Source: Theionarchaea archaeon (lineage in GTDB: Archaea; Methanobacteriota_B; Thermococci; Methanofastidiosales; SZ-28-30). Taken from it: 64,000 nucleotides of DNA. The position numbers and the translations under genes are program-made. This document shows, piece by piece, positions 33,933 through 39,839 of the stretch (within the stretch, counting starts at the first letter, position 1; every line of letters begins with the position of its first letter). Below the pieces are notes generated by a model, which did no database searches, was not told the DNA's origin, and saw nothing but the letters and a program-made list of their open reading frames with translations. The stretch is taken from assembly GCA_018992685.1 (NCBI GenBank), contig JACVGT010000002.1, positions 1 through 64,000 of the forward strand, written 5' to 3'.

Positions 33933-34120
33933 GAATAATCCTCATCCCTCTCTTCTAACGTTCATTGATGCCTTATAAGACTTTATGGTGCTTCTTCATC
34001 TTTCATTTTTTCGTGCCACATCAGGAATGGTGCTGCACGATTCGTGCCAAACCTATAAGAATGTGGGCATGCATGGTAATGGTAGACACTATCGGGAATT
34101 GCACAGAAACGGAGGTTACG

Positions 34121-36979
34121 ATGATCACCCATCCAAAGATCCTCTACTTGTTCTCTGGACCTCTGGTAGCCTTGGACGGCAGCCCTCTTGACGTGCTGGA
34201 TTTGAAAACGGAACGTGATATCATTGTGAGAGAGGTTTCTGCCTGTGAGATGACATGTTCACTCCGAATCGGGTATGCAACCATAGAAGAACTTGCCAAA
34301 GGCATTGAAGATGGATTCAACATTCTGCATATAAGTACACATGGCAGAGCGGAATGTCTCCTATTTGAAGATGGGAAGGGCGGAAGTCAGCCTGTCACAG
34401 GCGAGTACCTCAAGAGAGTGATAAGCACAAAAGGGTTACTTGAGTTGATCATCATCAGTGCCTGCCATTCAGAAGAGATTGGTGCAATGCTGGCAGACGC
34501 AGGTGTTCCACATGTTGTGGCTATCAGGCGCGATTCCTCTGTAGTAGATCAGTCAGCCATTCTCTTCACAACCCACTTCCTTCGCAATCTCTTTCGGGGA
34601 AGTTCTGTACAGAAAGCCTTTGAAATGGCTTCCCTGCTCGTAGAAGGGAACCCTGAATTGATGAAGATGAAACAACGTCTTGAGGTCATTGCCTACAGAA
34701 AAAAAGGGACATTCATTCCAGAAGAAAAGAAATTCATTCTACTTCCCACAGATGCTGCCCACCACGATCCTCTCCTCTCTCAAGAAGTCCCCTCAGGTAC
34801 CGTGACAATTGAAGAGCCCCCGGTTTCACCCTCGAATCTTCCCACAAAGCCGCAGTTCTTTGCAGGTCGACTTGAGGAGATGCATACCATCATCAACGAA
34901 CTCATTCAGGGTAGGTTTGTCACCCTGACAGGAGTGGGAGGCATTGGAAAAACAACGGTAGCTCTTGAGGTGGCACGATGGTTTTCTTCCAGGAGGGTTT
35001 TTCCTCATGGAATCTACTACATAGACCTCCGGCAGACTGATACTGCAGATGGAGCCCTTGATCTCTTGTGTTCAGCTCTCAAAGTACAGGTTTCTCGGCT
35101 CCAGAACGTTATCACCTACCTGGCGGACCGTCGCTGCTTGCTGCTTTTTGATAATGCAGAGGATGTTCTCTGGCACAATGAGAAAGACCTGCAGCATCTC
35201 TTCAACACAGTCCTGAAGACTACTCCCCACTCCACGATGTTGATAACAAGTCAGAGACCGGTTGGAGGCAACCTGCATGAACCCGAACATGTGTGCAGAA
35301 TATTTCCACTGGAACAGACATATGCTTGGATGCTTTTCTGTGCCACCACAAAGAGGAGGATTTTGCCCGATGAATGTGAATCGCCCCTCTTTTCTGCCCT
35401 CCTTGCCCGATTGGGGGGACACCCCTTATCAATTGTATTAACAGCACGTCAACTTGCTCCCGGGGTGACTCTGGAGGACATATACGAAAGGATTGAGACA
35501 TACAAGGCCGCAGCAATCAAAATAAAGCATCGTACAGATAGAATCCTGGACCACGGAGAAAGCCTCATGACAGCTCTGGCTTCTGCCTACCACATCTTGT
35601 CAGATCGAGCACAGATACTCTTTCAAGTGCTTTCCCTTCTTCCAGCGGGTGCCAGACGTGATATACTGGAAGAAATCTGGGGCAACCCAGTCTGGGAGCA
35701 CGTACAAGAACTCAATGATGCTTCCCTGGCAGAAGTGAGAAGCAGACGGGTGACTCTGCTGCCTCCAGTGCAACTATTTGCATTCACTGTTCTTGCTGAG
35801 GAAGTCAAAGAGTACTATGGTCCCAGAATCGTGGAAGCTATGGGGACATATGCCAAGACGCTGTACAAGGGCCACACCACAGAGGATTCGAGAGAATACC
35901 GGATTCTCTTTACTGTAGAAGAGCCAACCTTCCGAGCTATTCTAGACCTTCCCGATGAATCATTTCAAGCAGGGAAGAATGGTTCATTCCTTGGGTTCTT
36001 CGGAGCTGAACTCATTTACTTATATATTTTCCATAATCGGTGGAAAGAAGCAGAAACCATTGGTTCTAGGATACTGTCTCATCTTGGACGATGTGAGGAT
36101 TTTCAGGGTGAAGCACATGTTCTTGTAGCCCTGGGGGTCCTTGCTTTTCGAACAGGAAACCTTGAAGAAGCTAGGACAAGGTATGAAAAAGCTCTCAAAA
36201 CATACCAGAATATCCACGCGAGAATGGGAGTCGCAAATGCGTTTTGGGCACTGGGCGATCTTTTCTTTAGAACAGGAGATTTCGAAGAGGCTCAAAGGCG
36301 ATTTGAAGAAGCTCTGGATATATACCAGGAGATTGATGTGAATCTTGGTAAAGCAAATGCCTTCTTACGTTTAGGGATGCTTACTTTTCTAACAGGCAAT
36401 TCTGAAGAAGCTCAAGAACGGCTTGGAAAGGCCCTGATGATCTATCGATATATTCACGTCGAAATCGGTGAAGCAAACACTCTCCGCATACTGGGAGATG
36501 TCGCCATGTGGACAGGTGATGTGGACGCAGCCCACATCCAGTACCAGAAAGCCCTGAGAATCTATGTGCACAACAGCGTGAAGGATGGTGAAGCGCGTGC
36601 CCTGGTTCACCTAGCCCGGTGGGCCGCTCTTACAGGCAGAAGTGAGCACATGCAGACGTATCTTGATGATGCATTCACAATATATAGGGAGATAGAAGAC
36701 CTTGATGGACTGGCCCACGCGCACTTGGTAAAAGCGCTTCTCTTTCTCAAGACTCACAATACGATCAAAGCAAGGCGCCAACTCGATTTTTGTTCATCTA
36801 TCCAGGAAAAAACGTGCCAACATTCTGAAACAGCCCAATGGCTCATTACGTATGCAGACCACTTCATGTACTGTAAAGAAGAAGCAGTATTGTGTTTGGA
36901 ATATGCAGAGGAATTTGCCATGATGGCACGAAATCTCTACCTTCTTGGCAGAATAAGAGAAAAACAGGCATTGCTGTGA
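34121..36979 (+). CDS. CHAT (caspase-like) - NB-ARC/STAND ATPase - TPR protein
   Basis: CHAT His/Cys context HISTHGRAE and ISACHSEEIG; P-loop GVGGIGKTTVALE, Walker B LLLFDNAED; C-terminal ~40-aa TPR repeats; SD GGAGG before ATG 34121. Confidence 0.85.
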   Translation: MITHPKILYLFSGPLVALDGSPLDVLDLKTERDIIVREVSACEMTCSLRIGYATIEELAKGIEDGFNILHISTHGRAECLLFEDGKGGSQPVTGEYLKRVISTKGLLELIIISACHSEEIGAMLADAGVPHVVAIRRDSSVVDQSAILFTTHFLRNLFRGSSVQKAFEMASLLVEGNPELMKMKQRLEVIAYRKKGTFIPEEKKFILLPTDAAHHDPLLSQEVPSGTVTIEEPPVSPSNLPTKPQFFAGRLEEMHTIINELIQGRFVTLTGVGGIGKTTVALEVARWFSSRRVFPHGIYYIDLRQTDTADGALDLLCSALKVQVSRLQNVITYLADRRCLLLFDNAEDVLWHNEKDLQHLFNTVLKTTPHSTMLITSQRPVGGNLHEPEHVCRIFPLEQTYAWMLFCATTKRRILPDECESPLFSALLARLGGHPLSIVLTARQLAPGVTLEDIYERIETYKAAAIKIKHRTDRILDHGESLMTALASAYHILSDRAQILFQVLSLLPAGARRDILEEIWGNPVWEHVQELNDASLAEVRSRRVTLLPPVQLFAFTVLAEEVKEYYGPRIVEAMGTYAKTLYKGHTTEDSREYRILFTVEEPTFRAILDLPDESFQAGKNGSFLGFFGAELIYLYIFHNRWKEAETIGSRILSHLGRCEDFQGEAHVLVALGVLAFRTGNLEEARTRYEKALKTYQNIHARMGVANAFWALGDLFFRTGDFEEAQRRFEEALDIYQEIDVNLGKANAFLRLGMLTFLTGNSEEAQERLGKALMIYRYIHVEIGEANTLRILGDVAMWTGDVDAAHIQYQKALRIYVHNSVKDGEARALVHLARWAALTGRSEHMQTYLDDAFTIYREIEDLDGLAHAHLVKALLFLKTHNTIKARRQLDFCSSIQEKTCQHSETAQWLITYADHFMYCKEEAVLCLEYAEEFAMMARNLYLLGRIREKQALL

Positions 36980-36982
36980 TAT

Positions 36983-37894
36983 TCAACTCCCTGGATCGTC
37001 CCTGTCTGAGGGAGGCTGGGGGAACGGCTCTGAAAGATTCTCTATGAACTTTCTAACATCCTCAACCAGCTCTGGTGCACTATCAATCTTGTCATTGATG
37101 CTGAAGAGTCCCACTGCTTCTTCGAAACAGTGGAGAATCAACGTAACCTGGGTGGGATCATCATCTTTCGCTTGTTTCCAGAGAATATTGGCCTCTGTCC
37201 AGAGCCTGTTTGCCCTTCTTCTCAGTCTGTTCGCACGATTCCGGAATTGTTTCTTGAATTCTACTGGAATGCTTCTTTCTTCTCTTGTATCCCTTGTACC
37301 CTCCTGCAGACACTTGGTTTCATGGGCCAGGAGGATATCATACACATGACCAACTATGCCATCTGGATGGGTTTCACCTTCAGCCTTCCAGTTGTTCTTC
37401 GTTACTGCTGTTATCTCTAATCCACACGCTTCCTTAACCAGATCGGCAGAATTCTGTATCATGGGCCTGGAAGCAGACGGGTTATAGCTTGAAAGGTTGG
37501 CCAGTCTTTCAGCAGGTGCTGTGTATCCCTGATACCCGTTGCACAGATACTCCCAGTGTGTTCCCAGCAAATTGAAGTGAGTGGGGATTATATCAGGCTG
37601 CCCCCATCCCTCACGCGCGTAGGAGTCGGTGAGGAATCTTGAAAGAACTTCTGTCATCTCAATGACAATTTCCAGTAGTTCTTTCTCTTTCCCTACTAGT
37701 GTAGAAGTAAGAACCACCATTTCGTCTCTCTTTTCGTCAATGGCACCCATATTGAAAAGCACGGCGTCACCTGTCTTTAATGCTGCAGCAGCCGCTCCTT
37801 TGAGTGCTTCGTCAAAACTCCTCTTGATCTGCTGTTCTATACTGATGATCCTATTTATTTCCAGTTCAATGCTGTTTTCTTTTTGCCTTTCCAT
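36983..37894 (-). CDS. Protein of unknown function
   Basis: 304-codon ORF convergent with CHAT gene, only 3 nt separating the stops; helical C-terminus RNRANRLRRRANRLWTEANILW. Confidence 0.6.
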   Translation of the reverse strand: MERQKENSIELEINRIISIEQQIKRSFDEALKGAAAAALKTGDAVLFNMGAIDEKRDEMVVLTSTLVGKEKELLEIVIEMTEVLSRFLTDSYAREGWGQPDIIPTHFNLLGTHWEYLCNGYQGYTAPAERLANLSSYNPSASRPMIQNSADLVKEACGLEITAVTKNNWKAEGETHPDGIVGHVYDILLAHETKCLQEGTRDTREERSIPVEFKKQFRNRANRLRRRANRLWTEANILWKQAKDDDPTQVTLILHCFEEAVGLFSINDKIDSAPELVEDVRKFIENLSEPFPQPPSDRDDPGS

Positions 37895-38079: not shown

Positions 38080-39126
38080 CTAATCAGTCACCAAGATGTG
38101 TTCCAGTTCCTGCCAGCACCGCGGATCTTCTCCAAGGAAGTCGCCCGTTGCAGAAGCAGCTCCTCTACAGCCTCCGCAGGCGAATTTGTACTTACAGCCA
38201 CCACATTTCCCTTCAAGTGCTGATCTGGAATGGCGAAAATTATCTAGAAGTTCATTCTCAAACCAGATTCTTTCCACGTTCTCTCTTGTGGCATCAGCCA
38301 CAGAGATGGGGAAATAAGGACAGAGCTGCACAATCCCCTGAGGGTTGATGTAGAGCAGCGTAAAAGCAATCGAGCAACCAGTAACTGCTATCCCCTGCAT
38401 GAGATCTGAATCAATGTCTATCTCTTTCTGTCTGGTCTCGTTCACGAACATCTCAGGGAAGGGGTCACTGAACCCAACCCTCATATTCAATTCTTCACCC
38501 GTTTCCCATATTCTCTCGCACAGCCTCCGGTACTGATCCGCATCCACCATCCTATTTGTAGCTCGTCCCACTGGAACGAGATACCGGAAATTGAATATCC
38601 TGACGCCAATGCTATCTACAAATCGCATGAGAGCTTCAGGTTCATCTTCTCCCTGATGAAAATATGTCATCCGGACAGCCACTGTGGCATCACTTTCCAC
38701 GAGAAGGTTTAATGCCTGGACAGTCTTTTCAAAAGATCCTCTGCCCCGTACAGAATCGTGTATTCCTGGAGTTGCCCCTTCCATGCTGACATTGAACCCC
38801 CGGACTGTTTCTAAGAGCCAGTCAATTCTCTCAGGAGTTATCAAGGTTGCATTGGTGAGAAGCTCAACGTGATTTCCAGGCAGGTTGTCTCTAATGTAGG
38901 AGAGAATCTCCTGGAGGTCAGCTCTCATGAGAGGTTCCCCTCCTGCCATCGCAAGGGCTGCATGTGGTGAAAGAGAGTGTATCTGATTCAGCAGTGATAC
39001 AATTTGCTGATATGTCAAGTCTGCCGCAGTCTTGTCCAGGACACTTGCCCGACAGTGTTTGCATGCCAGGTTACACTGGCTTGTAATGTCCATCTGGACA
39101 ATTCTTGGTGGGTATTGCCATTTCAT
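38080..39126 (-). CDS. Radical SAM/SPASM protein, candidate peptide maturase
   Basis: CNLACKHC (CxxxCxxC), AGGEPLMR, SPASM-like cysteines CGGCKYKFACGGCRG; SD GAGGTGAT before ATG. Confidence 0.9.
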   Translation of the reverse strand: MKWQYPPRIVQMDITSQCNLACKHCRASVLDKTAADLTYQQIVSLLNQIHSLSPHAALAMAGGEPLMRADLQEILSYIRDNLPGNHVELLTNATLITPERIDWLLETVRGFNVSMEGATPGIHDSVRGRGSFEKTVQALNLLVESDATVAVRMTYFHQGEDEPEALMRFVDSIGVRIFNFRYLVPVGRATNRMVDADQYRRLCERIWETGEELNMRVGFSDPFPEMFVNETRQKEIDIDSDLMQGIAVTGCSIAFTLLYINPQGIVQLCPYFPISVADATRENVERIWFENELLDNFRHSRSALEGKCGGCKYKFACGGCRGAASATGDFLGEDPRCWQELEHILVTD

Positions 39127-39150
39127 TTCATCACCTCTGGTTGTGTGGAT

Positions 39151-39175
39151 AAAAAAACGGGGGCATGAAGCCCCC
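39151..39175 (-). terminator. Intrinsic terminator/attenuator-like hairpin between peptide gene and radical SAM gene
   Basis: Minus strand GGGGGC-TTCAT-GCCCCC followed by GTTTTTTT. Confidence 0.6.
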
Positions 39176-39183
39176 CACTCTAG

Positions 39184-39432
39184 TTACTTCGGCAAAATGC
39201 AGATATCGCATCCGCCACATGGCCCCTGCAAGTCGGGATAGAATGGCCGTAGAGGATGAATCGTCTTCAGTTTCTGCAACCTGTCTTCAATATCCATCTT
39301 CTTTGGCTCTCCTATGACAAGGTCGCATCCTCCACATGGACCTTGAGCTGCGTACACCGGGATCTTGTTTTGTTTCGCATGTTCCAAGGCATCTATCAAC
39401 TCTGATACAGAGTAGTGTTTGTTTGTATCCAC
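39184..39432 (-). CDS. Candidate RiPP precursor with two QGPCGGCD motifs
   Basis: Peptide VDTNKHYSVSELIDALEHAKQNKIPVYAAQGPCGGCDLVIG...DLQGPCGGCDICILPK; SD GGAAGTGAT 4 nt before GTG 39432; directly upstream of radical SAM gene. Confidence 0.7.
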   Translation of the reverse strand: MDTNKHYSVSELIDALEHAKQNKIPVYAAQGPCGGCDLVIGEPKKMDIEDRLQKLKTIHPLRPFYPDLQGPCGGCDICILPK

Positions 39433-39839
39433 GTTAATCACTTCCTTTCTTGCTGTGAGGTTGCTCTCTTTCCACAATGCAACCTCATACAGACACGTAT
39501 CTGGGTTCCTCTTCTTTCATGAATGTTATTATGGAGGATTAGACAACTCTTGGACAAAAAGGTTAGATTCATCAGGCCAGTTTTGACATTTTTCAGCAAA
39601 AATCATACATCTGAGGTATTGAAAATTCAAATAACCTGTTTCTAGAGACATAATGAACTAGATAATTCAATTGCCTGGATTGAGCATTGAGAACGAATGT
39701 CTAGGAATGTTAATTGTGAGGCCCTCGCTCGACTGTCATTTGAAAACATCAAGGCTTTCTGGGGACAACATCGAGGGATCATGGTATCATTAGGCGAGTT
39801 CCGGTGCCAGAAGCAGGTCTTCAATTGCAGGAAACACAG

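Follow-up and report, generated by a model that had tools for sequence, protein, structure and literature searches.

Introduction

The radical SAM/SPASM enzyme PapB joins a Cys sulfur to the beta-carbon of Asp in Cys-X3-Asp units, with a mass change of -2 Da per link, and tolerates Cys-Xn-Asp spacings with n from 0 to 6 (PMC9413430). In ranthipeptide maturases, AuxI sites held by three Cys residues can join in substrate binding, and the full eight-Cys SPASM motif of the heme-synthesis enzyme AhbD, which includes the cysteine of a TCAP motif, is found in methanogens and sulfate reducers; in AhbD of M. barkeri, C223, a cysteine preceding the SPASM core, was suggested to supply the fourth AuxI ligand (PMC10452713). 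Genome mining for modified peptides is largely guided by RRE domains and by maturase families already known. Here, we describe a pair of archaeal genes, encoding a small twin-CGGCD peptide and a radical SAM/SPASM enzyme, that would escape both. The pair lies in a stretch of 64,000 nucleotides (the window), which belongs to contig C4 of an archaeal genome of 3.03 Mb that is 91% complete (G000). All between-species comparisons of the peptide and the enzyme were based on G001, a sister Theionarchaea genome.

Results

A constrained gene for a twin-CGGCD peptide

The peptide gene is located on the minus strand at positions 39184..39432 and extends from a GTG start at 39432 to a TAA stop, yielding a product of 82 aa (MDTNKHYSVSELIDALEHAKQNKIPVYAAQGPCGGCDLVIGEPKKMDIEDRLQKLKTIHPLRPFYPDLQGPCGGCDICILPK). 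A previous sequence-only reading of this DNA had described an 82-codon, GTG-start gene with a consensus-like Shine-Dalgarno sequence and two copies of QGPCGGCD, the second near the C-terminus, and our analysis confirmed this description. The Shine-Dalgarno-like sequence GGAAGTGAT is present on the minus strand at 39437..39445, 4 nt before the GTG codon, and both motif copies are exact coding matches on that strand, at 39322..39345 (aa 30-37) and at 39205..39228 (aa 69-76), the latter followed by ICILPK up to the C-terminus. Five Cys residues are present in total, one of which, C78, falls outside the CGGCD motifs. In the entire 3.0-Mb genome, TGYGGNGGNTGYGAY occurs twice, both times in the peptide gene, and these are the only CGGCD-coding sites. 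The internal repeat score of the peptide was equalled by 0 of 5000 shuffles. The repeat proper is nevertheless short (PxY..QGPCGGCDxxI) and reaches significance only within a stretch of about 11-17 residues surrounding the motif, while upstream of it, the two 22-residue segments show no significant likeness (p 0.11-0.18); a full 38-aa internal duplication was therefore rejected.

The gene is conserved in G001, with 93% identity at the protein level. Of the 35 nucleotide differences between the two species, 27 fall at third codon positions, and the substitution rates (dN 0.049, dS 0.796, dN/dS 0.061) indicate stronger constraint on the peptide than on the adjacent enzyme (dN/dS 0.107). All five Cys residues and both CGGCD units are identical at a dS of 0.8, and conservation is strong along the whole length of the peptide and not in the core alone. 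Given this conservation and the low dN/dS, we regard the small open reading frame (ORF) as a real gene. A longer reading of 97 aa, starting from an in-frame TTG 15 codons upstream (39477), was also considered; the extension is broken by indels in G001, which supports the GTG start. An AlphaFold model of the peptide, built with only two sequences as input, had very low confidence (mean pLDDT 49) and displayed no compact fold.

A radical SAM/SPASM enzyme below the family cut-offs

The second gene of the pair (38080..39126, minus strand) starts 57 bases downstream of the peptide gene and encodes a 348-aa enzyme, whose counterpart in G001 is 86% identical. As the sequence-only reading had stated, it is a same-strand radical SAM gene with a CxxxCxxC motif and SPASM-like cysteines. 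The motif comprises C18/C22/C25, and the SPASM cysteines are seven in number (C251, C269, C308, C311, C317, C320 and C337). The product passes the Pfam models of the superfamily (PF04055, 82.7 bits; PF13186, 26.3 bits against a gathering score of 21.5), and its alignment reveals no N-terminal extension and hence no fused RRE/PqqD domain.

All NCBIfam scores of the enzyme are below the cut-offs. The highest ones, 124-171 bits against cut-offs of 395-515 bits, were obtained with TIGR04053 (171 bits; cut-off 395), AhbD (TIGR04545, 169.5 bits; cut-off 500), NirJ2 (150 bits; cut-off 500) and NirJ, and the scores with the ACGX model (TIGR04340, 104.7 bits; cut-off 400) and with MftC were lower than these. 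The suggested kinship with sactipeptide, ranthipeptide or QhpD-like systems stands as far as Cys-X3-Asp units do lie beside a SPASM enzyme; it is weak for the enzyme itself, which scored 58.7 bits with the PapB model (cut-off 340), 63.1 bits with the QhpD-type model (cut-off 453) and 58.3 bits with the sactipeptide maturase AlbA (cut-off 850), and matched SkfB (E value of 6e-10) in the radical SAM core only. The best matches outside Theionarchaea are about 28-34% identical.

At the position of the AhbD TCAP motif, the enzyme has SDPF, and the TCAP cysteine is absent. In our reading of the alignment, this cysteine would correspond to C223 of M. barkeri AhbD, the proposed fourth AuxI ligand. AuxI of the enzyme is thus predicted to have three Cys ligands, a feature that is not diagnostic, as the AhbD cysteine is missing from TIGR04053-type enzymes too.

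Hairpins and flanking genes

Between the two genes lies a stem-loop (GGGGGC-TTCAT-GCCCCC-G followed by T7; 39151..39175, minus strand) that is conserved in G001 with an altered loop (z -1.8 and -2.2). It is a candidate partial terminator, and such an element after a precursor gene would fit a substrate required in excess of its enzyme. A further conserved hairpin (39457..39486, minus strand; z -2.36) precedes the Shine-Dalgarno sequence of the peptide gene; its 8-bp arms are GAGGTTGC/GCAACCTC, and GAGGTTGC/GCGACCTC with one G-U pair in G001. An Rfam search at the locus returned no match.

No RRE, protease or exporter was found in the scanned neighbourhood of the pair, and the window contains no heme genes. 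Downstream of the pair, behind a T-rich tract, a 303-aa protein with no significant Pfam or NCBIfam match is encoded on the same strand (36983-37894) and is kept in G001. A CHAT-NB-ARC-TPR protein of STAND-type architecture (33965-36979) is convergent with the pair and is also retained beside it in G001.

Distribution of the pair

Both genes recur together in G001, on a 14.7-kb contig that is collinear with the window over its entire length. The contig stops just upstream of the peptide gene, and the comparison covers the remaining side. Since the whole contig is syntenic with the window, the shared adjacency constitutes weak evidence of a functional link. The homolog and co-occurrence search proposed with the sequence-only reading thus recovered the pair in this collinear sister contig and yielded no further genome with the peptide, so that the pair is known from two sister genomes only.

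A peptide profile run against 397 archaeal genomes gave nothing credible beyond the two Theionarchaea, and no occurrence outside Theionarchaea was found in further, partly overlapping sets of 158 and 23 archaeal genomes or in GTDB contigs, the last scanned solely with the non-motif stretches EHAKQNK and GEPKKMD. Viral contigs and plasmids yielded none either. Weak matches in other archaea (E values of 0.002-0.05) were rejected: the two strongest correspond to ORFs of AbrB-like and methyltransferase-like type, and the rest of those inspected were non-coding or unrelated. In line with the sequence-only reading, which did not recognise the repeated motif from a described class, the peptide matches no known Pfam or NCBIfam family, including zinc-ribbon, rubredoxin and ferredoxin models. 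The RecQ zinc-binding segment (PCGNCDIC) was among the best profile matches without being significant (E value of 1.2; 0.2-0.3 for the NCBIfam RecQ models). Among the titles and abstracts retrieved by a literature search for CGGCD, none reported such a peptide.

A twin-repeat cluster beside the closest-grouping enzyme

In a 51-row tree, the Theionarchaeal enzymes grouped weakly (85/88) with two enzymes of G076, a genome that we read as a Thermococcales member from its group in the sister order. Support rose to 98/96 after NirJ, MftC and TIGR04053 references had been added and very long rows dropped. Keeping a single G076 enzyme gave 98/97 for the first and 93/83 for the second. The branches joined are long (1.7-2.1). 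Forcing the Theionarchaeal pair of enzymes into AhbD cost 14-15 log units, with an AU p value of 0.004 in one set and 0.13 when a different row was omitted. Placement of the enzyme outside AhbD, on its own deep branch beside the G076 enzyme, appears good but not final on the aligned sequences.

Directly upstream of the radical SAM enzyme in G076, a 65-aa ORF (MKERKYIPPTISRDLDRIGPICAPEAHWKSSTFMDEYVPPTITREPNRLGPICAPEAHWRSGEIS) with a clear Shine-Dalgarno sequence contains a 26-residue unit twice (0 of 2000 shuffles), PPTIxR...R[IL]GPICAPEAHW, with a single Cys per repeat and no NCBIfam or Pfam match. The cluster (locus L138, 456-4243 on contig C12) continues with the enzyme, a PqqD-domain protein, a second radical SAM/SPASM enzyme and an MFS protein, a gene order matching that of a modified-peptide cluster. 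In another genome, G050 (L141), the twin-repeat peptide is frameshifted and the first enzyme broken. No sequence similarity was detected between the Theionarchaeal and thermococcal peptides; what the two loci have in common is their architecture, in which a duplicated Cys-containing unit directly precedes an enzyme from one and the same branch.

Other peptide and radical SAM loci of the host genome

The host genome contains 31 radical SAM/SPASM-like stretches matching the TIGR04340 model, corresponding to about 28 genes. Several radical SAM/SPASM genes adjoin short Cys-containing ORFs (for example, MKFNVKKVESISTTAVAPAAKNPWKETKMQCL or ...CGCGGCCCAFYCRTLIC), and a peptide-modifying role for one more enzyme of this genome would therefore not be exotic. 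On contig C10 (L078, 1954-8152), a short Cys/Gly-rich ORF ending in VNPTGKCGGCACGCFVVNCMGLSAC precedes four CxxxCxxC ORFs of 454-616 aa, a candidate for another modified-peptide cluster by its gene content. A 52-aa ORF with eight Cys residues (...VCGCGGCCCAFYCRTLIC) lies ahead of two CxxxCxxC ORFs of 461 and 465 aa on contig C18 (L088, 1976-5089), and on contig C1 (L079, 1155-1646), EIS[VM]EIDQCMCCA is present in two short, related ORFs near radical SAM genes. Peptides of 29-35 aa ending in WKExKxxCL (WKEAKLQCL, WKESKMVCL and WKETKMQCL) recur beside radical SAM genes on contigs C3 (L073, 2021-2128), C7 (L075, 6361-6450) and C19 (L086, 4744-4842), and likely represent a repeated precursor family.

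Discussion

We moderately favor the interpretation that the small peptide is a substrate and the radical SAM/SPASM enzyme its dedicated maturase. This interpretation is supported by the G076 enzyme that groups closest, which also follows a two-repeat, Cys-containing peptide. We hypothesize that the pair represents a RiPP family, as had been proposed from the sequence alone. A peptide with its radical SAM enzyme is what fits best, both genes being constrained, the SPASM enzyme lying outside AhbD and the G076 cluster offering a parallel; on the other side stand the lack of a nearby RRE, protease or exporter, the restriction to two sister genomes and the rival metal role of CGGC...CGGCDIC.

According to that rival explanation, which we consider less likely but serious, the peptide would be a small protein that binds a metal or a cluster: its two CGGC units would build a single Zn or Fe-S site together with C78, for a structural, electron-carrying or accessory function, with or without the enzyme. 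The CxxC...CxxCxxC spacing would suit such a site, as would conservation along the whole peptide, and the RecQ zinc segment ranks among the best matches, although insignificantly; yet neither a zinc-ribbon, rubredoxin nor ferredoxin model recognized the peptide, the predicted structure is not compact, albeit from two sequences, and the G076 twin peptide, with one Cys per repeat, could not build a site in the same way. It is improbable, in our view, that the enzyme acts on a tetrapyrrole or another small molecule, in the manner of AhbD or NirJ, with the peptide as a chance neighbour or helper. The top NCBIfam models and a shared C-terminal CGGCR...GDxxxxDPxC pattern point in that direction, but the scores remain far under the cut-offs, the TCAP motif is missing, forcing the enzyme into AhbD is costly in the tree, and some AhbD-type relatives adjoin HemE/HemH-like genes, whereas the Theionarchaeal enzyme does not.

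If the peptide is indeed the substrate of a maturase, the intergenic stem-loop would allow it to be produced in excess of the enzyme. The enzyme, having no RRE, would contact the peptide directly, probably via the conserved N-terminal part (aa 5-47). Cleavage of SAM would then lead to hydrogen abstraction from a residue of each CGGCD, either the Asp beta-carbon or a Gly alpha-carbon, while the Cys thiol may be bound at the auxiliary cluster AuxI with its three predicted Cys ligands. Each turnover would close one Cys thioether (-2 Da), in the simplest case C33-D37 and C72-D76. Both CGGCD units fit Cys-X3-Asp, the target type of PapB, and because PapB makes such links in these units, the most economical proposal by analogy is that each motif acquires a Cys-Asp thioether, a tentative suggestion even within the maturase interpretation. 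Cys-to-Gly alpha-carbon links within the motif are also possible.

More speculatively, and with some doubt on our part, the two loci could define a novel class of archaeal peptides modified by radical SAM enzymes, marked by cores duplicated in tandem and by AhbD-like SPASM enzymes that carry no fused RRE, the core types being CGGCD in Theionarchaea and GPICAPEAHW in Thermococcales. The enzyme lies near heme-synthesis enzymes in sequence space, and if the peptide is its substrate, the pair would show how SPASM chemistry passes between tetrapyrrole and peptide substrates, and Theionarchaea would contribute a two-gene system of simple genetics.

Compared with known systems, the locus resembles the PapA/PapB and SCIFF/CteB ranthipeptides in combining a SPASM radical SAM enzyme with a short peptide nearby that contains Cys-X3-Asp units, and may resemble CteB in the three Cys residues at AuxI predicted from the alignment. 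Unlike PapA/PapB, it has an enzyme that scores far below the PapB cut-off and is free of an RRE, an unrelated precursor and a thioether that is hypothetical. The ACGX system, whose target is a Cys-Gly repeat, also employs a radical SAM/SPASM protein, by its NCBIfam name, but the low score of our enzyme with that model speaks for a different family. RecQ shares the PCGxCDxC residue pattern of the zinc-binding segment, yet this match is statistically insignificant and the peptide has no RecQ domain. With AhbD, NirJ and TIGR04053, the enzyme shares overall length, the radical SAM core and the SPASM spacing CX17C...CX2CX5CX2C...C, and it differs from them in missing all cut-offs, in the absent TCAP cysteine and heme genes and in its separate branch. 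The Thermococcales cluster differs in its unrelated peptide, in the additional PqqD protein, second radical SAM enzyme and MFS protein, and in an enzyme that is about 30% identical; it is alike in that a peptide with two Cys-containing copies lies directly ahead of a radical SAM enzyme, and the enzymes group at 98/97. We regard the Theionarchaeal pair as a candidate new variant among radical SAM/SPASM peptide systems, to be considered together with this twin-repeat cluster.
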